Below, one piece after another: positions 17,514 through 27,676 of a stretch of 64,000 nucleotides of DNA. Below the pieces are notes generated by a model. That model was not told where the DNA came from, ran no database searches, and worked only from the letters and a program-made list of their open reading frames with translations. The position numbers and the translations under genes are program-made. Origin of the DNA: Cystobacter ferrugineus (lineage in GTDB: Bacteria; Myxococcota; Myxococcia; Myxococcales; Myxococcaceae). Each line of letters begins with the position of its first letter. Position 1 is the first letter of the stretch. The stretch lies in contig NZ_MPIN01000018.1 of NCBI RefSeq assembly GCF_001887355.1, positions 124,001 through 188,000 of the forward strand. The letters are read 5' to 3'.

Positions 17514-18797
17514 ATGGCCCATCCCGCCCCTCCGCATGTCCAATCCGCCCAGGCCCAGGTCGCCGCCGCCCTCGAGCAGCTCGCGGGCAAGCCCGTGGAT
17601 CTCCTGAAGACGCCCTGGCCGGAGGTGGAATCCGCCCTCCCCAACCTGCTCGGCGGCGCCTTTGATCCGAACAACCAGAACCACCAGGTGCTCGCGCTGG
17701 GAATCGGCGGAGCGCTGGCCGAGCGTCTGGCGGGCGAGCATGGCGCGTTCTGGTTCCTCAACCGCGAGTCCCCCGAGGGGGCGTCGCTGGGCTTCCCCGA
17801 CGCGCTCATCGTGCTGTCGCCGTTTGGCGAGGTGATGAACTCGCTCATCGCCGGCAAGCTGTCGCGCCTGGACGAGCTGACCGCGAACATCCGCGGCATG
17901 CTGGGCAAGGCGCGCTTTGGCGGCGCGGGTGGCGGGCAGAAGCTGGGCCCGGCGGACTACCAGCGGCTCATCGATCCGGGCTTCATGCAGTTCCTGGTGA
18001 TGGATCCGGCCAAGACGGTCAAGGCGCTGGACTCCACGCCGGACGCGCTGGCGCGGGAGATCCGCGACGCGCTGGGCCGGGCGCAGATTCCGAAGGAAGT
18101 GCGCCAGCAGTTCGAAGGCCAGGTGCTCACGGCGCTGCAGCAGATGCAGCCGGGCAAGAAGCTGTCGGAGCAGGTGGACGTGGCGCCGCGCATCGTGGAG
18201 CTGATGGCGCACCTGTTCGGCACGCAGGCGAGCACGGGAGCGGCGCAGAACGAGTTCTGGGGCCACCTCATCCTGCCCATGCTCTTCATCGGCACGCCGC
18301 AGGACTTCCCGCCCGTGGACGAGGAGGAGATCCAGGCGTTCACCCAGGGCGTGGCGCCCATGGAGCTGTTCGTGGACGTGGTGCCGCACTCGGTGCAGGC
18401 GCCGGACGAGGGGCTCTTGGGCGCGTTCGATCGCACCGAGGTGAGCCCGCTGCACGCGAGCTTCGAGCGCTCGCGCGCGCCCTTGCACCTGCTCAAGCTG
18501 AACATGGAGCGGCTCAAGCCGGTGCTGGCCAGTTTCGACCCGAACCAGATGGTGGACACGGTGCGCCGCTTCACCAAGTACATGGAGGAGAAGGCTGGCA
18601 AGGGCGCTCCCCCCAACCCGCAGAACGAGGAGATGCTCAAGGCGGCCTCGGTGCTGCTGGGCGACCTCAAGAAGCTGGTGGTGGAGGGCAAGGGCGACGT
18701 GTGCCTGCGCCAGATGACCGAGGGCGACGCCATGTCCGAGCGGGACCTGGCCGCGGTGCGCAACGCCCTGCAGGGGCCTCGCATCATCCTGAGCTAG
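17514..18797 (+). CDS. Cytosolic protein of unknown function
   Basis: I do not recognise this 427-residue protein. It has no signal peptide or membrane segment, is rich in Ala, Leu, Glu and Lys and is probably mostly helical. Notable stretches are FWFLNRESPEGASLGFPDA (about 80-98) and EFWGHLILPMLFIGTPQDFPPVDEEE (about 245). The ATG has AGGA eight bases upstream. It stands alone between a divergent gene to the left and a convergent operon to the right, with a hairpin just after its stop. Confidence 0.75.
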   Translation: MAHPAPPHVQSAQAQVAAALEQLAGKPVDLLKTPWPEVESALPNLLGGAFDPNNQNHQVLALGIGGALAERLAGEHGAFWFLNRESPEGASLGFPDALIVLSPFGEVMNSLIAGKLSRLDELTANIRGMLGKARFGGAGGGQKLGPADYQRLIDPGFMQFLVMDPAKTVKALDSTPDALAREIRDALGRAQIPKEVRQQFEGQVLTALQQMQPGKKLSEQVDVAPRIVELMAHLFGTQASTGAAQNEFWGHLILPMLFIGTPQDFPPVDEEEIQAFTQGVAPMELFVDVVPHSVQAPDEGLLGAFDRTEVSPLHASFERSRAPLHLLKLNMERLKPVLASFDPNQMVDTVRRFTKYMEEKAGKGAPPNPQNEEMLKAASVLLGDLKKLVVEGKGDVCLRQMTEGDAMSERDLAAVRNALQGPRIILS

Positions 18798-18808
18798 GCC
18801 CTGCCCGC

Positions 18809-18843
18809 GCGGCGCGAGGGACGCCAACCGTCCCGAGCGCCGC
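18809..18843. terminator. Hairpin between convergent genes
   Basis: The arms gcggcgc..gggacg and cgtccc..gcgccgc pair over 13 bases with a 2-base internal loop and the loop ccaac. The hairpin lies between the stops of two convergent genes and could end transcription from both sides. There is no T run. Confidence 0.5.
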
Positions 18844-18855
18844 GTGGAGTGGAAG

Positions 18856-21714
18856 TCAGTCCGCGCGGGCGAACTGGAACTGCAACTCCTGTCCATTCGC
18901 GCGCCGGATGCCGAGCTGGATGGGGCTCGCTGGCGCGCCCAGGGTGCGCTGCTCGGCCTCCACGCGGCTGCGTACCACCTGCCCGTCCACCCTCAGCACC
19001 TGGTCTCCCACGCGCAGCCCCGCCTGCTCCGCGGGGCCCTGCGGCGTCAGCCATGCCACGGAGACCCAGCCGCGCTCCTCGCTGAAGCCCGCGCCCACCG
19101 TGCCCGAGGCCGCCTTGCTCCTCGACACCGGCACGTCCCCCAGGTCCACCGTCTCGCCCGAGGCCACCGTCACCGTGCGCGTCTCGGGGATGCCATTGAG
19201 CGGGTAGAGCCGCAGGATGTGTTGGCCGGGTGCCACGTCGTCCAACCGGAAGCGGCCATCCGTCCCGGTGCTCGCATCGACCGCGCCCGCCATGGGCTTG
19301 TCCAGGTAGAGGGCCACGTTCTCCGCCGGTGCGCGATTGCTCCAGACGGCCCTGCCCGAGATGGAGGCCGTGCCCCCCGTGAGCGCGAGCTCCACCCGCG
19401 CGCTCTGTCCCGGCTCGAGCTTCACCGAGGCCTCTCCCGTGCGCCCGTCCGTCGTGCGCACGCTCACGCGCAAGGGGAGGCCTGGTGCCTCGGTCAGGAC
19501 GAAGGAGTCCCCCGTGAAGGAGCGCTCGACGACCGCGTGCGTCTCCCACGGCAGCGCCGTGCCGTCCTCCTGGAGGAGCTTGAGGAGGAAGCCCTGGGGC
19601 GCGCCGCCGCCGCGGGTCACGATCTTCCCGTGCAGGGTGGCCGCGGGGCGTAGCTGGATGACGGACTCCTCCCTCTCCTTCGCCACGGCGAGCTCGCCCA
19701 CCCGGCCCGCGTTGTGCGCCAGCAGCCGCAGGGGCGTGGCATTCGCCCCTCGCGGTGGGAAGGCGAAGCGTCCTTCCTCGTCCGCTCGAATGGTGCTGGT
19801 GATGGCGTACTGTCCTGTCTGGATGCCGGCCACCTGGGCGTTCGGGCTGGGGACGCCGGAGGGTTCCAGGACCGTCCCCTCCACGCCGCGATCATCGACC
19901 AGCGTCAGGTCCTGCACCACCGCCGCTCCCGCCGCCACCGTCACCGTGGGCTCATCCTCCCGGAAGACGGTGATGCGCGAGCCGGGCAGGAGCGCGGCGA
20001 GCTGGTAGTTGGCCGCGGGCAGCTCGAGCGAGTAGCGGCCCTGCGCGTCCGTGTCCGCGTAGGTGACTTCTCCCCCCCGGAGCTGGGACTCCAGGGCGCG
20101 GGCGCGCACCGTCACCGGCTGCGACGGGGGCGCCCCGGACGCCAGCTTCACCTGACCCCTCACGGTGCCCGTCTCGCCCAGGGTGAAGTCCAGCCGGGTG
20201 GTCTCTCCCGCCTTCGTGCTCGTGGCCCGTGTCGTCCAGTGCGCCGAGTCCTGCCGCCGCGCCATCGCCGGGAAGCTGCCCACCTCCAGCCCTTCCAGGC
20301 GGTAGGTTCCATCCGAGTCCGTGCGCGTGGTGCGCCCGTGCGCCCGGACATGGGCGCCCGTCACCGGCCTCCCGTCCGGGTCGGACACCACGCCCGTGAG
20401 GATTCCCGCCGCCTGGAGCTGGAAGTCCACGGCCACGCGCTGGCCTGGCACCACCACCAGGGCGGCGCGCACCCCGCGGCTCAGGCGCGGGGCCAGCGCC
20501 ACCACGTCGTATTCGCCCGGTGGCAGGTTGAACGTGTAGCGCCCCTCCGAGTCCGCGGCGGTCCGGCTCACCTCGCCATCCTCACCCGCGGGACTGGCCA
20601 CCAGGCGCGCTCCCGGCACCGGTGCACCGCTGGCCGCCTCCGTCACCGAGCCCGTCAGGCCGCTCCCGGAGCCGAGGGTGATGCGCAACTCGCCGCGCGT
20701 CTCTCCTGGCCCCACCGAGAGCAGGCCTGGAACGCGACCCAGACGCTCGCCGTGCCGCGCCGCCAGCAACCAGGTGCCATTGGCCACCTCCAGCGAGAAC
20801 GCCCCCGTGGCGCTCGTGGTGACATGGGGCACCTGCGTCCTGCCCAGGGCCAGTACCTCGGCGCCCTCGACGGGCTGGCCGTCCTCGCCCACCACGAAAC
20901 CCTCCAGCACGCTCGCGCTCCACAACCCCACCTCCAGCTCGCCGGCGAACGGCACCGTGACGAGGCGCATCGTGCGCCGGCTGTGGCCCGGTGCCTCCGC
21001 GGTGAGCGCATAGCGGCCCGGCGACAACCCGGAGAAGGTGAAGTGGCCGTGGGCGTTCGCGACCGTCACCGCCGTCTCCTCCGGCAGCTCCACGGCACGC
21101 GACGTCGGGCGGAGCGCCTCCGTATAGGGACGCAGCGACAGCTCCGCGAGGGGAACGGGCTCGCCGCGCCCGGCGGCGATGACGCGGCCTCGCAGCTCCA
21201 CGGCCGCGCTCAGCGACAACTCCACCGCCGTCTCCATTTCACCGGCCGGGCGATCCACCTCGCGGCGCGCGGGACCATGGCCCTCGGCGGCCGCGCTCAG
21301 CAGATAGGCTCCTGGCGCCGCGGGCAGCCGCAGCGTTCCACCCGGCCCCGTCGTCCCCGCGCCGGCCCGGAGCCAGTGCACCTGGCCCGTGCCCTCATCC
21401 GGCCCTCGCAGGTACGCCTGCACCCGTGCGCCCTCGAGGGGCCGGCCCTCCGCCACCACACGCACCACGAAGGCCCCCTCGCTGGAGAGCGCGGGAGTCT
21501 CCAGGAGGGGAGTGGCGCGCGGGGCCTCTTCGGTCGAGGCCAGGCCACCGGCGAGGGGCACCCGCCTGGCGGTGGGGATGGGGGAAGGAGCGCGCTCGGC
21601 GGGGCGCTCCATCGAGCCCTCTTCCGTGGGTTGCGACCACAGCAGGAGGGAGGCGAGGACCGCCAATCCCATGGCGAGGGCGAGCGGCAGTCGAACACGA
21701 TTGGACACGCTCAT
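18856..21714 (-). CDS. Membrane-anchored CarboxypepD_reg repeat protein with C-terminal PDZ domain
   Basis: The 952-residue protein begins with one transmembrane segment (LPLALAMGLAVLASLLLW). About eight repeats of the transthyretin-like carboxypeptidase regulatory fold follow, with recurring patterns such as GxVxxxxGxPVxGAxVxAxG and DSEGRYTFNLPPGEYDVVA. The last 85 residues form a PDZ domain (PAEQAGLRVGDQVLRVDGQVV). There is no protease domain. It starts 11 bases after the C39-ABC exporter stop and reads in the same direction, so it is probably the last gene of the RiPP operon. A role in holding or presenting the exported product is inferred; many CarboxypepD_reg proteins are surface scaffolds. 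The ATG at 21714 precedes the TM directly. Confidence 0.85.
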   Translation of the reverse strand: MSVSNRVRLPLALAMGLAVLASLLLWSQPTEEGSMERPAERAPSPIPTARRVPLAGGLASTEEAPRATPLLETPALSSEGAFVVRVVAEGRPLEGARVQAYLRGPDEGTGQVHWLRAGAGTTGPGGTLRLPAAPGAYLLSAAAEGHGPARREVDRPAGEMETAVELSLSAAVELRGRVIAAGRGEPVPLAELSLRPYTEALRPTSRAVELPEETAVTVANAHGHFTFSGLSPGRYALTAEAPGHSRRTMRLVTVPFAGELEVGLWSASVLEGFVVGEDGQPVEGAEVLALGRTQVPHVTTSATGAFSLEVANGTWLLAARHGERLGRVPGLLSVGPGETRGELRITLGSGSGLTGSVTEAASGAPVPGARLVASPAGEDGEVSRTAADSEGRYTFNLPPGEYDVVALAPRLSRGVRAALVVVPGQRVAVDFQLQAAGILTGVVSDPDGRPVTGAHVRAHGRTTRTDSDGTYRLEGLEVGSFPAMARRQDSAHWTTRATSTKAGETTRLDFTLGETGTVRGQVKLASGAPPSQPVTVRARALESQLRGGEVTYADTDAQGRYSLELPAANYQLAALLPGSRITVFREDEPTVTVAAGAAVVQDLTLVDDRGVEGTVLEPSGVPSPNAQVAGIQTGQYAITSTIRADEEGRFAFPPRGANATPLRLLAHNAGRVGELAVAKEREESVIQLRPAATLHGKIVTRGGGAPQGFLLKLLQEDGTALPWETHAVVERSFTGDSFVLTEAPGLPLRVSVRTTDGRTGEASVKLEPGQSARVELALTGGTASISGRAVWSNRAPAENVALYLDKPMAGAVDASTGTDGRFRLDDVAPGQHILRLYPLNGIPETRTVTVASGETVDLGDVPVSRSKAASGTVGAGFSEERGWVSVAWLTPQGPAEQAGLRVGDQVLRVDGQVVRSRVEAEQRTLGAPASPIQLGIRRANGQELQFQFARAD

Positions 21715-21724
21715 GTGCTGTCAC

Positions 21725-23884
21725 CTACCTCGGAAACAATTTGCGGTAATGCCCATCACGGAGCTGGAGTTCCTCGTGCGTGCCTTGCTCGACGAGCTCG
21801 CCCTTCGACAACACCATCACCCTGTCCGCTTCCATCGCCGTGCTGAGCTTGTGGGTGATGATGAGGGTGGTGCGCCCCTTGCGCGCCTCCTTGATCGCCG
21901 CCATGACCCCGCGCTCCGTGGCGCTGTCGAGATTGCTCGTGGACTCATCGAGGATCAGGATGGGCGCGTCCTTCATGATCGCCCGGGCGATGTTGATGCG
22001 CTGCAATTGACCGGTCGACAGGTTCGCGCCGCCTTGCGCCACCTGGGCGTTGTAGCCCTGGGGGATGGACTCGATGAACGAGGCGATGTTCGCCACGTGC
22101 GCGATGCGCGAGACATCGTCCGGACGCAGGGGATGCATCATCGTGATGTTGTCATTGATGGACTGCTGGAACACATGGCTGCCCTGGAACATGACGCTCA
22201 CGTGCCGCCGCAGCTCTCGGGGATCGAGTTCCCGGGTGCTCACGCCGTCGATCCGGACATCGCCGGAGGTGGGCAGGTAGAAGGCGGCCAGCAGGTTCGC
22301 GATCGTGCTCTTGCCCGAGCCGGTCTCTCCGATGACCGCCACGCACTCGCCCGCGGAGATCTGGAAGCTGACGTTCTTGAGGACGGGGCGGCGGTGCTTG
22401 TATTCGAAGCAGACACGGTCGAACTGGAGATGCCCCTGCACGGACGCAAGGGTAATGGGACTGGAGGCCCGGGTCTCCTCCGCGGGCAGTTTCAGCACCT
22501 CGTCCAGCCGCGCCATTCCGATGAAGGCCGAGTGAAGATTGAGCAGCATCGTCGGCAGGCGTTGGAGGGGGTTGAGGTGCAGCGCCACCATGCCGAAGAT
22601 CACCAACAACTCCCCCGCGCTGATGTGCTGCGCCAGCACGCGAGTCCCGCCGTACCAGAGCACGGCGCCGATGACCAACGTGGACGTCAACATGCTCCAC
22701 AGCAAGGGCAGGAGCATCGCGACGCGCAGCTCGTGCCGGGCCTTCACGAGCGTGTCGAACTTGTCGAGCAGCAGCTGGCTATAACCCTTCTCGGCGGAGG
22801 AGATCTTGATGACCCGGATTCCCTCGAAGACCTCGAGCAGCCGGCCCGCGAACTCATCTCCCTGGGTCATCGAGTCGAGCTGGGCCGACCTGACGCGCTC
22901 CGACAGGAAGAACGTCCCCAGCAGGACGGGGGGGAGCGCGCAGAGCGAGAAGAGGGCCAGGACCGGGTCCAGGGACACGATGATTCCCAATGTCCCCGTG
23001 AACACCAGACCCTCGACGACCAGCGCGACCAGCCCCTCGGTGAGCGCGCCCTGGATGGCGTCGAGCTGATTGACGCGCATGACGAAGCCCGAGATGTTCC
23101 TGCTGTCGAACACGCGCATGGGCAGCGTCATCAGGTGCTGGATGAATTGTCTGCCATATGTCCGTTGCAGCGCATGTCCCACGCGGGCCGTCAGCCACAT
23201 GCGGAAGAACTGCAACAAGGACTGCAAGAGACCCGCGGCCACGAGCGCGGCCCCCAGCAACTTCAGGGAGTCATGGGCGCGTGCCGGAAGGATGTCATCG
23301 AAGAAGCTCTTGAGGAAGAACGAGGTGCTCCACCCCAGGGCCGTGGCGAGCACGGAGATGCCCAGCGCCAGCAGCAGTGGATTCACATGGGGCAGCAGGG
23401 TACGCACGAGCGCGGTCAACGCCTGGAAGTCAGGGGGGCGGGTGCGCAACGTGGCCGTGGGGTGGAACTCCACGGCATAACCCGACCAGGAGGACTCGAG
23501 CTGCTGGCGCGACATGCGGCGCGGCCCCACCCGTGGATCCACGAGGGCCACGTCCTCGGGCGTCCACTCGTCCAGGACGACGTAATGCCCGGCGTCGTCC
23601 TTGAGATGCAGGATGGCGGGCAGCTTCACCTGGCCCAGGGCTTCATAGGTCGCCCGGGCGGGCCGGGCATCGAAGCCGATCGCCCGCCCACCATCCCGGA
23701 GTCCCGCGAGGGAAGTCCCATCCCGGTCGGTGCCGACCAGGGACCGGGCGTGTTCGAGGGAGATGTGGTGCCGATGATGACCCGCGATGCTGGCGAACGC
23801 GGCCGCGCCACAGTCGGAGGGATCCGAGGCGCGTACCCACGGCGAGCGCCGGCCCATGCCCCAGCTACCCAGCAGCAACAGCAC
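21725..23884 (-). CDS. C39-peptidase-containing ABC exporter (bacteriocin/RiPP type)
   Basis: The 719-residue PCAT protein has an N-terminal C39 peptidase with a DCGAA motif (Cys25), His100 in GHYVVLDEW and Asp116 in LVDP, so the catalytic triad is complete. The exporter transmembrane domain spans about 155-450. The ATPase has Walker A GETGSGKST (about 518), a signature LSTGQLQ in place of LSGGQ, Walker B ILILDESTSNLD and the H-loop THK. Such proteins remove a leader and export the core peptide. The GTG start with an AAGGAGG box overlaps the ATP-grasp gene by 20 bases, which fixes the start; an internal ATG at 23857 lacks such a site. The substrate is presumably the small precursor at 25039-25299. 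Confidence 0.92.
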   Translation of the reverse strand: MLLLLGSWGMGRRSPWVRASDPSDCGAAAFASIAGHHRHHISLEHARSLVGTDRDGTSLAGLRDGGRAIGFDARPARATYEALGQVKLPAILHLKDDAGHYVVLDEWTPEDVALVDPRVGPRRMSRQQLESSWSGYAVEFHPTATLRTRPPDFQALTALVRTLLPHVNPLLLALGISVLATALGWSTSFFLKSFFDDILPARAHDSLKLLGAALVAAGLLQSLLQFFRMWLTARVGHALQRTYGRQFIQHLMTLPMRVFDSRNISGFVMRVNQLDAIQGALTEGLVALVVEGLVFTGTLGIIVSLDPVLALFSLCALPPVLLGTFFLSERVRSAQLDSMTQGDEFAGRLLEVFEGIRVIKISSAEKGYSQLLLDKFDTLVKARHELRVAMLLPLLWSMLTSTLVIGAVLWYGGTRVLAQHISAGELLVIFGMVALHLNPLQRLPTMLLNLHSAFIGMARLDEVLKLPAEETRASSPITLASVQGHLQFDRVCFEYKHRRPVLKNVSFQISAGECVAVIGETGSGKSTIANLLAAFYLPTSGDVRIDGVSTRELDPRELRRHVSVMFQGSHVFQQSINDNITMMHPLRPDDVSRIAHVANIASFIESIPQGYNAQVAQGGANLSTGQLQRINIARAIMKDAPILILDESTSNLDSATERGVMAAIKEARKGRTTLIITHKLSTAMEADRVMVLSKGELVEQGTHEELQLRDGHYRKLFPR

Positions 23885-24944
23885 GGTCCGCCTCCTTCCA
23901 CGCGAGGCTCGAGGGGGCCAGGGGATAGTGGATGCTCCCCGCGCGCAGCATGGAGGCCAGGTTCTCGTAGATGGGCAGTCCGGCCAGTTGGGCGATCCAA
24001 TCGAATTGCCCGTTGGGATTCACTTCCAGGAAGACGAACCGGCCCTCGGTGGTCACGATCATGTCGACACTGCCGAACACGAGCCCCAGGCGATCCATGA
24101 GCCGCAAGAGCTTGTCACCCACCTGCGCGGGCAACTCGTAGGGCTCGTGCCGCACATGCTCCAGCCGCTGGTAGCGCCGCCAGTCCGTCCGGGTGCGCCG
24201 GCTGTCCTGGGAGTGGATGGCGCACGCGAAGAGCCGCCGGCCGACGATGACGATCCGCAACTCCAACTGCTTGTCGACGTAGGGCTGGAAGATGCCTGGC
24301 GTGGGCACCCGGCCTTCGTCCTCTTGCAAGTCCTCTTCCTTGACCTTGCTCGTGTAGAGCGTCCCCACCCGCTCGGGACGTTCCGCCGTTCCACCACTCG
24401 TCCTGATGAAGGGGGTGAAGGGTTTGTAGATGATGGAACCCGCCTGCTGGTGGTGGAAGTCGCGGGCGAAGCGCAGGTCCGCCGTGTAGAGCGTGGAGGG
24501 AACGTCGAGCCCCTCCTGGGCGGCGACGAGCAGTTGCGCGCACTTCTCCTCGTAGGCGGTGTTGAAGGGGGGCGGGTTCACGCAGAAGACATCGCTGGCC
24601 TTGAGCGCCAGGCCCAGACCCGAGCAGAACGACTTCCACTCCCGCTTGTAGAACGCCCACTCCCTCGCCTTGGACGCGAGCCCCTTGAGCGCCGGATCAT
24701 GGGAGAAGCGCTGCCATCCACGCCACAACAGGGCCGACTTGATCTCCGATGCGTCGAAGCGGCGTTCTCCCATCTGGAGTTGCAGACGTCCGCGGCCCGT
24801 CTCGCTCTGGGAAACATGGACGGCGACGGAGCTCTCCACCGACCGCGTGTCGAGCACCACGGGTTGCTCGCCCGCCGCCGTCAGGACCTCCTGGAGCCGC
24901 AATACCGTGTTGTCTTGGGCGTACGCCGTCACGAGCAGGATCAC
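23865..24944 (-). CDS. Graspetide-type (MvdC/MvdD-like) ATP-grasp ligase
   Basis: The 359-residue enzyme has a pre-ATP-grasp N-domain (NTVLRLQEVLTAAGEQPVV), then VNPPPFNTAYEEKCAQLLVA, GLDVPSTLYTADL, IIYKPFTPF, IFQPYVDKQLELRIVIVG and the hallmark metal-binding end FLEVNPNGQFDWI (Glu307, Asn309). These are the features of peptide-modifying ATP-grasp enzymes that form omega-ester or omega-amide links between Ser/Thr/Lys and Asp/Glu side chains. The GTG at 24944 (MILLVTAYAQDN) with GAGG five bases upstream is preferred; the frame is open to 25079. It lies between the precursor and the exporter. Family assignment is firm, reaction on this precursor is inferred. Confidence 0.88.
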   Translation of the reverse strand: MILLVTAYAQDNTVLRLQEVLTAAGEQPVVLDTRSVESSVAVHVSQSETGRGRLQLQMGERRFDASEIKSALLWRGWQRFSHDPALKGLASKAREWAFYKREWKSFCSGLGLALKASDVFCVNPPPFNTAYEEKCAQLLVAAQEGLDVPSTLYTADLRFARDFHHQQAGSIIYKPFTPFIRTSGGTAERPERVGTLYTSKVKEEDLQEDEGRVPTPGIFQPYVDKQLELRIVIVGRRLFACAIHSQDSRRTRTDWRRYQRLEHVRHEPYELPAQVGDKLLRLMDRLGLVFGSVDMIVTTEGRFVFLEVNPNGQFDWIAQLAGLPIYENLASMLRAGSIHYPLAPSSLAWKEADRAVAAG

Positions 24945-25038
24945 ACGAGCCTCATCGAAAAAGGAGACACGGTGGAGGAGGGCGCGTCCGGCATGGCCGG
25001 AGCGCCCAACTCCATCCCATGGAACGAAGGACTCTCGA

Positions 25039-25299
25039 CTAGACCGAGAGCTCCATGTCGGACACGTCGAAGCCATCACCGCACAGCTTGATGGTCACGG
25101 CCGGCGTGGTGGGCGTGGTGGGCTCGAGCGAGCCGGTGGACAACCCGGTGCAACCGACGACATCGAGGAGGTTCGCCTCCTCGTCCTCGATGTACTGCAA
25201 TCCGAAAATGGGCGACTTCTGGCTGTTGTTCGTCTCGGTCAGCATAAACACCTTTCCGGGGTTGAGGAATTCAATCCCATGAGCATTGTACTGAGTCAT
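25039..25299 (-). CDS. Candidate RiPP precursor peptide (86 aa)
   Basis: This is the only small gene between the repeat array and the ATP-grasp gene, in the same orientation, and ends 95 bases before it. From Met1 to about residue 50 it is a leader-like region with an acidic helix (IEDEEANLLDVVGC). Then comes a Thr/Ser/Pro-rich stretch (T61, T62, T64, T65, T69, K71) and an acidic tail with D75, D78, D81 and E83. That gives acceptor and donor groups for side-chain ester or amide links, as in graspetides. Two cysteines (C50, C73) could bridge. No GG/GA site for C39 cleavage is clear; VVGC or LSTG is the nearest. No good ribosome site precedes the ATG, and the frame runs further upstream, so the start is provisional. 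Confidence 0.68.
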   Translation of the reverse strand: MTQYNAHGIEFLNPGKVFMLTETNNSQKSPIFGLQYIEDEEANLLDVVGCTGLSTGSLEPTTPTTPAVTIKLCGDGFDVSDMELSV

Positions 25300-25336
25300 G
25301 ATGTCTGTGGAAAGGGCCGAGCGTGTATTGCTTGTT

Positions 25337-25440
25337 GTTGCTTTGGAGGCAACAGGTGAGAGGCGTTGCCTCGGAAACAACAGATGAGAGGTGTTGCTTT
25401 GGGAGCAACAGGTGAGAGGTGTTGCCTCGGAAACAACAGG
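25337..25440. repeat. 28-bp tandem repeat with internal hairpin, 3.7 copies
   Basis: Copies start at 25337, 25365, 25393 and 25421 (the last is 20 bases). Consensus on + is gttgcYtYggRRRcaac, a short inverted repeat, followed by aggtgagaggt. Units alternate between a ggag-like and a cggaa-like loop. The array ends about 40 bases before the precursor ATG in its upstream direction, so it lies in the 5' region of the RiPP operon. Nothing else in the window matches it. A regulatory or RNA-structure role is possible but unproven. It has no unique spacers, so it is not CRISPR. Confidence 0.85.
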
Positions 25441-25470
25441 CCGGGTGCTTCCCCCCTCTTCGTGGCCATC

Positions 25471-25511
25471 AAAACGAGAAGGGGGGCGAACCACCCTGGT
25501 GGTCGCCCCCC
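25471..25511 (-). terminator. Intrinsic terminator after the P450 gene
   Basis: A strong stem (ggggggcg.accacc paired with ggtggtcgcccccc, one bulged base) ends with the minus-strand T-rich run ttctcgtttt. It is 20 bases past the P450 stop and separates the P450 and TetR genes from the RiPP operon downstream. Confidence 0.75.
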
Positions 25512-25532
25512 TCGGATGCCTGGCCTTATCGC

Positions 25533-26774
25533 TCAAGCGCTCGCGTGAGCGCCCGGCGCGGGCTCCGTGCGGAGCCGCAGGGACTTGAGGCCCCGGAGGG
25601 CGAAGTGCGGCACCTGCTCCAGGTGCTGGCCCGGGGCCAGGGAGAGCTTGCGGTCCGGCGTGAGCAGTTCCTCCAGCGCCACCTTGGCCTCCAGCCGCGC
25701 CAGGGGCGCTCCGAGGCAGAAGTGGATGCCGTGGCCGAAGGCGACCTGGCCCACCACATTGCGTGTCACGTCGAAGCGATCCGGATCCTGGAACTTGCGC
25801 GGGTCGCGGTTGGCGGAGCCGAAGAGCAACAGGACGCTCGCCCCCGCGGGGATGCGCGTGCCGGACACCTCCACCTCCTGCGTCGTCTTGCGGAAGAGCG
25901 CCTGCGCGGCCGAGTCGTAGCGGAGCATCTCCTCCACCGCGTTGGGGATCAGCGAGGGCTCGCGCGTGAGCCGCTCCAGTTGATCCGGATGGCTCAGCAG
26001 CGCGCGCATGCCGTTGCCGAGCAGGTTGGTGGTGGTCTCGTTGCCCGCCACGAGCAGCAGCCGGCAGAAGGCGACCGCGTCGTCCACGGAGAGCAGGCCC
26101 TCGCGCACGCCGTTGTCCAGCAGCGCCTGGATGAGATCCTCCCGGGGCTGCTGGCGGCGCGCTTCCAGGGCCCGCGCCATGTAGTCGGCCATCTCGCGGG
26201 CGCTGCCCTCGATGCCGGACAACTCCGCGCCCTTGGCGAGCGCGTAGGAGGTGGCGATGGCGTCATCGGACCAGAGCTTGAACTCGTGCCGGCGCTCCGG
26301 CTCCACGCCCAGCATCTCCGCGATGACGATCATGGGCAGCGGCTCGGCCAGGTCCTTGATGAGATCGAACTCGCCCGAGCGGGGGAGCTGGGAGATGAGC
26401 TCGCGGGCGAGCTGACGGATACGGGGCTCCATCTCGGCGATGCGCTTGGGGGTGAAGGCCCGGGTCACCAGGTTCCGGGTCTTCGTATGGGTAGGCGGAT
26501 CCTCGCTGATGAGGACGCCCCGGCGGAAGGAGCGCACGGCGGTGGGGGCCACCCTCTCCGCCGCGTCGAGCTGCTCTGGCCGCACGATGGCGCGCGCGGA
26601 GGAGAAGACCGCCGGGTTCTTGGTGATGGCGACGACGTCCTCGTAGCGGCTGACGATGTACCAGCCGAGCTGCTCGTTGAAGTAGACGGGGGCGTTCTCC
26701 CGGAGCGTCGCGTAGTACGGATAGGGATCGGCCTGCACCGCGGACATCAAGGGGTTGTAGTCACTGGCGTGCAT
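25533..26774 (-). CDS. Cytochrome P450, bacterial class I type
   Basis: The 413-residue soluble P450 has the I-helix motif VAGNETTTN, the ExxR pair EEMLR, the PERF-like region DPDRFDV and the heme loop FGHGIHFCLG with Cys353 as axial ligand. It has no N-terminal membrane anchor, as expected for bacterial monooxygenases fed by ferredoxin. No ferredoxin gene is adjacent. It is about 50 bases downstream of a TetR gene read in the same direction, so control by that regulator is likely. ATG at 26774 fits the family N-terminus (MHASDYNPLMSAVQADPYPYY); an earlier GTG at 26813 would add 13 residues. The substrate is unknown. A terminator lies behind it, so it is probably not part of the RiPP operon. 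Confidence 0.92.
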   Translation of the reverse strand: MHASDYNPLMSAVQADPYPYYATLRENAPVYFNEQLGWYIVSRYEDVVAITKNPAVFSSARAIVRPEQLDAAERVAPTAVRSFRRGVLISEDPPTHTKTRNLVTRAFTPKRIAEMEPRIRQLARELISQLPRSGEFDLIKDLAEPLPMIVIAEMLGVEPERRHEFKLWSDDAIATSYALAKGAELSGIEGSAREMADYMARALEARRQQPREDLIQALLDNGVREGLLSVDDAVAFCRLLLVAGNETTTNLLGNGMRALLSHPDQLERLTREPSLIPNAVEEMLRYDSAAQALFRKTTQEVEVSGTRIPAGASVLLLFGSANRDPRKFQDPDRFDVTRNVVGQVAFGHGIHFCLGAPLARLEAKVALEELLTPDRKLSLAPGQHLEQVPHFALRGLKSLRLRTEPAPGAHASA

Positions 26775-26823
26775 GGGAATAGGGGCTTTCTTGAGGGGTA
26801 GGGGGGCGACCACGGGTTGCGAC

Positions 26824-27468
26824 TCAGCGCTTCTTCCCCGCCCCCTTCAGGAAGAAGTCGCGAAAGGGTTCCATCAGCGCGATGAGCGGACCGGGTGAGT
26901 CCGTGTACCGGTCATGGACGATGGCGGAGCGGAGCATTCCGAGCAGCAGCGCCGGATAGAGCGCCGCGAACTCGGGCTTGAGCACGCCCTCGGCCACGCC
27001 GCGCCGCACGAGCCGCTCCGCGCAGGCGTGGACGTCGTCGAGTCCCGAGCCACTCCGCTTCTCCGCCGCGCTGGTGTGGCGAGGAGCGGTCATCTCGCCC
27101 TGGACGAGGATGGAGAAGAAGCGGCGGTGCTGTTCCAGGAAGGTGAGCGTGGCGCGCAGGAAGGCATCGAACTCCTCGTGCCAGGGCTTGCCCCGGGCTC
27201 CTTCGCTCACCTCGTCCAGCACCTTCACGAGCTCCGCGCGACGGCGGGCCATGAGCGCGGCGAGCAACTCCTCGCGGTCCTCGAAGTAGTTGTAGAGCGT
27301 GCCCACGGCCACGCCCGCCCGCTTCGAGATGTCCTCGATGCGCGTGCCGCCCACTCCCTGCTCGGCGAAGACCTGCTCACCCGCTTCGAGGAGGGCTTGT
27401 TCCGTCTCCTCGCGCAGGCGTTCCCGGAGTGTCTTCGTTCCCGGCTCGGGTGGTGAGCGTTTCTTCAT
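26824..27468 (-). CDS. TetR/AcrR-family transcriptional regulator
   Basis: The 214-residue repressor has the TetR helix-turn-helix at about 18-64 (ALLEAGEQVFAEQGVGGTRIEDISKRAG, with the recognition end VAVGTLYNYF), then an all-helical ligand domain. A perfect 14-bp palindrome lies 5-18 bases upstream of its ATG and is the obvious operator, so it should repress itself and the P450. The divergent small gene at 27677 could also respond. The ligand is unknown and probably relates to the P450 substrate. Confidence 0.92.
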   Translation of the reverse strand: MKKRSPPEPGTKTLRERLREETEQALLEAGEQVFAEQGVGGTRIEDISKRAGVAVGTLYNYFEDREELLAALMARRRAELVKVLDEVSEGARGKPWHEEFDAFLRATLTFLEQHRRFFSILVQGEMTAPRHTSAAEKRSGSGLDDVHACAERLVRRGVAEGVLKPEFAALYPALLLGMLRSAIVHDRYTDSPGPLIALMEPFRDFFLKGAGKKR

Positions 27469-27472
27469 TGGA

Positions 27473-27486
27473 TGAAGATATCTTCA
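27473..27486. promoter_or_regulatory. Palindromic operator candidate for TetR
   Basis: The perfect inverted repeat tgaagatatcttca, flanked by GG and CC on the two sides, sits immediately before the TetR start codon. Position, length and symmetry fit a TetR autorepression site. Confidence 0.7.
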
Positions 27487-27676
27487 CCCAGAGGCAGGAA
27501 CAAGCGGGTGCGCAACGCCAGGGGCGGAGTGCCGCACGGGCGACCTCCGCTCTGTTGACAGCCCGTCATCCGGGCGGTGGGGCGGGCGCTTCGCCTGTCG
27601 CGGGGGAAGGTGATGCTTGGAGTGCGGCGCTCCACCGGAGGGAGTGCCTGCTTCGGGTGGGGACGAGAGGAACGTC

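Follow-up and report, generated by a model that had tools for sequence, protein, structure and literature searches.

A probable horizontally acquired PF14409-type graspetide operon, extended by an envelope-protein gene, in Cystobacter ferrugineus

Gene content of the locus

The window analyzed here is a 64,000-nucleotide stretch of the Cystobacter ferrugineus genome (contig NZ_MPIN01000018.1, positions 124,001 to 188,000), in which four minus-strand genes fill positions 18856–25299 (Table 1). The first three, referred to as the trio, encode a peptide precursor, an ATP-grasp ligase, and a C39 peptidase-ABC exporter of a candidate graspetide pathway; the fourth encodes a CarboxypepD_reg/PDZ protein, hereafter the scaffold. 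An earlier note, made by a model from the letters alone, had proposed a graspetide-type operon at this site. Its gene positions and common strand were borne out, the FLEVNPNGQF motif lies in the ligase as described, and model matches recovered the C39, ABC membrane, and ABC ATPase domains of the exporter together with the CarboxypepD_reg repeats and PDZ domain of the 952-residue scaffold. The 20-bp overlap between ligase and exporter and the 10-bp gap between exporter and scaffold were also correct, whereas the precursor and ligase genes are 94 bp apart rather than 95.

Table 1. Features of the graspetide locus and its surroundings (window coordinates).
Feature	Position	Strand	Description and basis
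Graspetide precursor	25039–25245	minus	68 aa from the better start; leader SPIFGLQYIEDEEANLLDVVGC, then core with Thr/Ser/Lys and Asp/Glu; PF14409, alignment of relatives, start-codon context
ATP-grasp graspetide ligase	23865–24944	minus	359 aa; TIGR04185, TIGR04184, solved relatives, tree clade
C39 peptidase-ABC exporter	21725–23884	minus	719 aa; PF03412, PF00664, PF00005, all above cut-off
Putatively membrane-anchored CarboxypepD_reg/PDZ protein (scaffold)	18856–21714	minus	952 aa; PF13620 in 8 stretches, C-terminal PF17820 PDZ_6; N-terminal hydrophobic span by reading
Inserted block	18846–25522		Approximate, ends by eye; flanks adjacent in congener G074
Sigma-70-like promoter	25285–25313	minus	TTTCCA-17-TACAAT
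Tandem array	25336–25440		28-bp unit repeated 3.8 times, with a GTTG-N9-CAAC dyad in every copy; lies upstream of the promoter; Tandem Repeats Finder
Hairpin	25475–25514	minus	G+C-rich, then TTCTCGTTTT; probably the terminator of the P450 gene upstream; RNA fold

The precursor matches the Pfam family PF14409 (Herpeto_peptide) with 94.7 bits (E = 3e-27, cut-off 22). A longer reading frame starts at 25299 (25039–25299, 86 aa); translation probably begins at an internal ATG, position 25245, because the sequence GGAAAGG ends 5 bases upstream of it, the sole sigma-70-like site lies 40 bases upstream, and relative to FGL the Pfam match and the precursors of Herpetosiphon have roughly this starting point. 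The leader contains the motif SPIFGLQYIE, whose FGLxYxE signature is invariant in 21 of 21 aligned precursors (the one in the window and 20 relatives). By analogy with the PFFARFL motif of microviridins, as described in excerpts of PMC8939145, FGLxYxE is likely the ligase-docking motif. By reading, the C-terminal part of the precursor, VTIKLCGDGFDVSDMELSV, offers both hydroxyl or amine groups and Asp/Glu residues for cross-links.

The ligase matches the MvdC/MvdD-type models TIGR04185 (1.4e-55) and TIGR04184 (2.6e-52), in both cases below the curated equivalog cut-offs. Its relatives of solved structure are 5ig9, 7m4s (AMdnB), 5ig8, and 7mgv (CdnC), and AMdnB and CdnC are presumably graspetide ligases. 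Weak matches to the RimK and LysX models raise the alternative that the enzyme yields a non-peptide product, in the manner of such amino-acid ligases, and that the small gene next to it is unrelated. However, these E-values (1.6e-7 and 7.8e-5) trail those of the peptide-maturase models by more than 40 orders of magnitude, the small gene is a member of a curated precursor family, and the solved relatives carry microviridin-type names such as AMdnB. We therefore rejected this alternative as exceedingly improbable; the model scores do not favor the grouping with non-peptide ligases that the earlier note had named as a danger to its interpretation.

Distribution of the trio and origin of the scaffold

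A ligase-based scan of genome contigs, covering one genome per species with exact short patterns, confirmed 7 loci out of 55 pattern matches, so that the range of taxa is a lower bound. All seven are from Chloroflexota: four Herpetosiphon species, two Herpetosiphonaceae assemblies, and one other. The exporter directly follows the ligase in all seven, although in one of them (L011) the contig ends inside the exporter gene. Each locus carries between one and five PF14409-like precursors, 19 in total by reading, and homologous loci lacking a small peptide gene, the other danger named by the earlier note, were not encountered. The precursors follow the exporter in six of the seven loci; in L011 the precursor comes first, as in the window. 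The exporter in the window is 48% identical to those adjoining Herpetosiphonaceae ligases and 52% identical to the L011 piece. In Herpetosiphon aurantiacus, by reading, five PF14409-like genes stand in a row after a single ligase-exporter pair (L008, 12672–13740). An equivalent scan based on the precursor gave 593 matches to its exact short patterns, none of which was confirmed.

Precursor-like genes are sparse among the myxobacterial genomes searched. PF14409 matched only the genome of origin among 145 genomes of the order, and the 21-row precursor alignment, searched against 195 Myxococcota genomes, matched two, this genome and G081, each of which also supplies a row to that alignment. The G081 precursor was not matched by PF14409 and was recognized by reading. 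It adjoins a ligase 48% identical to that in the window, and the 19.7 kb read there contain neither an exporter relative nor a scaffold relative. The G081 precursor (L041, 9110–9331) has the same leader motif and a core of two MRMSYxGDPRDTG repeats; the next genes along resemble, by reading, a thiolase and a fatty-acid oxidation enzyme. A search for the exporter in 19 relatives returned, among the matches listed, full-length proteins about 32% identical or less.

A ligase tree places the window, G081, and the seven Chloroflexota proteins in one clade with a support of 100 in the Shimodaira-Hasegawa-like approximate likelihood ratio test (SH-aLRT), separate from the microviridin-type ligases of myxobacteria. 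The identity of the window ligase to the PF14409-type Chloroflexota enzymes is 46–50%. Judged by family models, the tree, and the trio's recurrence in seven of seven Chloroflexota loci, the RiPP (ribosomally synthesized and post-translationally modified peptide) core is a further member of the known PF14409 graspetide family in an unexpected host, and this part of the earlier proposal is supported.

The four genes lie within a clean insertion. In the congener G074, the genes flanking the block (97% and 91% identical to those in the window) are 98 bp apart, and the block is missing. The P450 gene upstream lies outside the insertion; it was considered as a pathway gene and rejected, since it and the far-side gene are neighbors in G074, where the block is absent, and a strong hairpin separates it from the operon. 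At the same site another congener, G073, has a different gene of 322 aa (L109, 7576–8544), and the gap between the P450 and its neighbor may be a spot of gene turnover.

The scaffold has a history of its own. Full-length relatives, 48–62% identical, occur in 32 of the 95 other genomes of the family, namely G081, four of six genomes of group g3, and all 27 of group g19. Of 14 loci read (12 relatives and two paralogues at ~38% identity), 10 lie near hrcA and two, both from g19, lie elsewhere; most of the hrcA-site loci have a YegS-like kinase and a HAD hydrolase nearby. The hrcA site of the genome of origin, like that of G074, is intact but without a scaffold gene.

Comparison of the scaffold with the genes around its usual site reveals conflicting relationships. 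The M50, HAD, and YegS genes at the hrcA site of the genome of origin are 71–82% identical to those of g3 and 63–67% to those of G081, while the scaffold is 61% identical to that of G081 and 51–55% to those of g3. In a tree of 23 of the 35 collected scaffold sequences (the 12 omitted are all from g19), the window and G081 are sisters (support 100/99.8), and a grouping of the window with g3 is rejected by the approximately unbiased (AU) test (p = 0.00018). A tree of four hrcA-site neighbor genes, built from the 11 of 14 loci that have all four (L095, L103, and L104 were left out), joins the genome of origin and G074 to g3 (100/100) and rejects their union with G081 (p = 9e-99). Because these two trees contradict each other, vertical descent of the scaffold gene in this genus was rejected: on sequence comparison the gene is horizontally acquired, from a lineage on the G081 side. 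Long branches, those of the window (0.48, versus 0.22 for G081) and of the paralogues, call for caution with the scaffold tree; its proximity to G081 stands nonetheless because plain identity agrees. The excess divergence of the window protein is found in repeats 6–7 and the PDZ domain and is absent from repeats 1, 3, 4, and 5 (segment limits set by hand). Specifically, its PDZ domain is 60% and 59% identical to those of g3 and g19, versus 76% and 71% for the PDZ domain of G081.

Predicted pathway and the place of the scaffold

Taken together, we consider it highly probable that the locus is a horizontally acquired PF14409-type graspetide operon extended by an envelope-protein gene. The operon looks chimeric, combining a lower-GC graspetide trio (61.8–65.6% GC) with a GC-rich envelope protein of myxobacterial type (73.8%; 70.2% for the window). 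The simplest story, which is not proven, is that it was assembled in another myxobacterium and arrived here as a unit; a possible alternative is that the site received two insertions independently. In the predicted pathway, the FGLxYxE part of the leader would dock on the ATP-grasp ligase, which would link Thr, Ser, or Lys side chains in the core to those of Asp or Glu as lactones or lactams, each link costing 18 Da. Cleavage after VVGC by the C39 domain would follow, and the ABC part would export the core to the periplasm. The same transcript would encode the scaffold, predicted to be a single-span, periplasm-facing string of β-sandwich domains ending in PDZ. At the envelope, the scaffold might act on the exported peptide or its target, through retention, presentation, or self-protection, or it might be a passenger, and the two possibilities are about evenly poised.

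The peptidase step deserves particular scrutiny. The exporter has all three catalytic residues (Cys, His, and Asp). Cys and His are kept in seven of seven aligned exporters and Asp in six, with Asn in L011; the alignment holds seven of the eight exporters, as L009 was left out and read separately. At the oxyanion-hole position, six residues before the catalytic Cys, seven of the eight exporters (the window and seven Chloroflexota) have Ala, L009 included, and L011 has Val, whereas PCAT1, ComA, and three of three other myxobacterial exporters have Gln; these three controls are text-pattern matches, and two further proteins that were fetched (L092 and L093) did not match and were not read. Such substitutions, the Asn of L011, and the atypical leader end could mean that the C39 domain has lost its peptidase activity and merely binds the leader, which another protease would remove. 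We regard this as unlikely: the catalytic Cys and His are invariant, and an active peptidase is the likelier state because the Gln-to-Ala change in CvaB had minimal effect on secretion (excerpts of PMC3335142). The leader end also appears to be retained, as (V/I)(V/I)GC closes the leader in 20 of 20 precursors adjoining this exporter and is missing from the exporter-less G081 precursor. These 20 precursors represent eight loci, several of them near-identical, and were chosen for their FGL motif and their similarity to a stretch containing VVGC.

Peptidase-exporter substrates usually have leaders ending in GG, GA, or GS (excerpts of PMC10885120). Compared with the consensus given in excerpts of PMC10885120 and PMC6959990, the leader fits with Val at −4, Leu/Ile at −7, Tyr at −15, and Gly at −2, and in Herpetosiphon also with Glu at −8; it departs from it at −12, which is acidic, and at −1, which is Cys. 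Cleavage directly after VVGC is a prediction.

Several points weigh against the interpretation of the locus given above. The 20-of-20 count is weaker than it appears because precursors lacking VVGC could have been passed over. LahT150 reportedly fails to remove a leader unless hydrophobic residues stand at −4, −7, and −12 (excerpts of PMC10885120), and with this result, the GC leader end, the acidic −12 position, and the missing oxyanion Gln, leader removal by the C39 domain is not certain. The ligase scores fall short of the MvdC/MvdD equivalog cut-offs. Within the ligase clade, G081 joins the Chloroflexota (support 86, quick tree) and the window falls outside, so a joint origin of trio and scaffold from the G081 side fits poorly. 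The product of the operon is itself a prediction from the genes. Finally, by sequence similarity no scaffold relative was found at any of the eight related ligase loci, among which the downstream side of the L011 exporter is not visible and G081 has no exporter at that site.

This last result bears directly on the role of the scaffold. The earlier note had suggested looking for all four genes together in several genomes; that search did not find them so combined, and the scaffold did not prove to be a conserved member of the operon. In the reverse direction, none of the 14 loci around scaffold relatives and paralogues contains a trio gene at E 1e-10, a threshold that a short precursor alone could escape. 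Together with the predominance of the hrcA site among those loci, the difference in GC content, and the abundance of such repeats in the genome of origin (60 PF13620 matches, the scaffold's included), this is consistent with a passenger, in which case the trio would be the functional unit and a myxobacterial envelope gene would have been carried in or inserted alongside it, with no part in the pathway. We rate this explanation only slightly below an even chance. Against it, the scaffold shares strand and insert with the trio and starts 10 bp behind the exporter, with AGGTG, a good ribosome-binding site, seven bases before its start; a consensus scan found no terminator-like site at the junction and three weak same-strand ones inside the exporter gene. 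In addition, its long branch and a PDZ domain further from g3 and g19 than that of G081 point the same way. The scaffold is tied to the operon by the shared insert, the 10-bp gap, and its own foreign origin, which amounts to an association in one genome and not a conserved unit. Whether the scaffold has some role in the pathway is, in our assessment, evenly balanced. A more ambitious and doubtful proposal is that the pathway has newly recruited it as a dedicated receiver, tethered at the envelope, to hold, present, or neutralize the exported peptide, with the PDZ domain possibly reading the peptide C-terminus, and that the exporters form a branch pairing a GC leader end with a Gln-less C39 domain.

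The closest known systems are the Herpeto_peptide (PF14409) loci of Herpetosiphon and other Chloroflexota, which are alike in the FGLxYxE...VVGC leader, the ligase, the C39-ABC exporter, and the adjacency of ligase and exporter. The window differs from them in having the scaffold gene, a core that is longer and unlike theirs, and a single precursor, which precedes the ligase as it does in L011. Microviridins are defined by a PFFARFL-type leader and paired MvdC/MvdD ligases. The window shares with the microviridin-type systems (MdnB/MdnC, MvdC/MvdD) the ATP-grasp ligase superfamily and the expected side-chain cross-linked core, but it lacks the PFFARFL leader, has one ligase rather than two, and belongs to a separate clade. 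A microviridin-type locus does occur elsewhere in the genome of origin (L042, 7403–9662, contig C7), whose precursor has a PFFARLL leader ending in VTGG and two TQKYPSD cores; two ligases come next, a pair also present in the congeners G073 and G074. Like the peptidase-containing ABC transporters (PCATs; PCAT1, ComA, LahT, and NHLM transporters), the exporter has an N-terminal C39 domain, an ABC part, and a Cys/His/Asp triad, and it departs from them in the Ala that replaces the oxyanion Gln and in a substrate leader ending in GC.

Graspetide pathways with partner proteins, first reported in 2026, offer a further parallel. According to excerpts of PMC13097080, a survey of 21,584 predicted graspetides found peptidase-exporters in many groups, and partner proteins have been characterized in two. 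In rosaritide and corallotide, too, the ligase has additional genes at its side, which the pathway requires or employs; their partners are MirC, a predicted PpiC-type isomerase, and CorD, the partner of an oxygenase (PMC13097080). A phylogenomic study of graspetides lists PF14409 as one of the precursor families (excerpts of PMC8939145). Neither 'PDZ' nor 'carboxypeptidase' occurs in the main text of PMC13097080, and both 'PDZ' and 'carboxypeptidase regulatory' are absent from that of PMC8939145, supplementary tables being outside the scope of both searches. A literature search that covered few subscription papers returned no paper pairing graspetide with carboxypeptidase regulatory-like, and none pairing graspetide, or omega-ester and ATP-grasp, with Herpetosiphon. 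The four-gene combination therefore appears to be new; the pairing with the scaffold is the unusual element, the trio alone being of a known kind. The locus brings a Chloroflexota-type pathway into a myxobacterium, next to an envelope protein whose origin is myxobacterial, and is compact enough to be cloned as a whole. An exporter set seemingly using a GC leader end with no oxyanion Gln could widen the rules by which RiPP leader cleavage is predicted.

Upstream region of the operon

The earlier note had placed a terminator between the operon and the P450. The hairpin at this position folds strongly (−38.4 kcal/mol for 25462–25526, z −4.1), which makes a terminator plausible; a consensus terminator scan did not list it. 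An Rfam search of the block returned two matches, both far below gathering scores, which were disregarded. The sigma-70-like site is the only promoter-like site in the 9.1 kb from 18500 to 27600, where shuffled sequences contain a mean of 0.3. Between the P450 hairpin and this promoter, the dyads of the tandem array begin at 25337, 25365, 25393, and 25421, in exact 28-bp steps, and two more, both isolated, occur elsewhere in the 64 kb. A 27-base unit pattern has three matches in the genome of origin, all at the array, and none in three congeners. By its repeat structure and position, the array looks like a candidate regulator-binding array.

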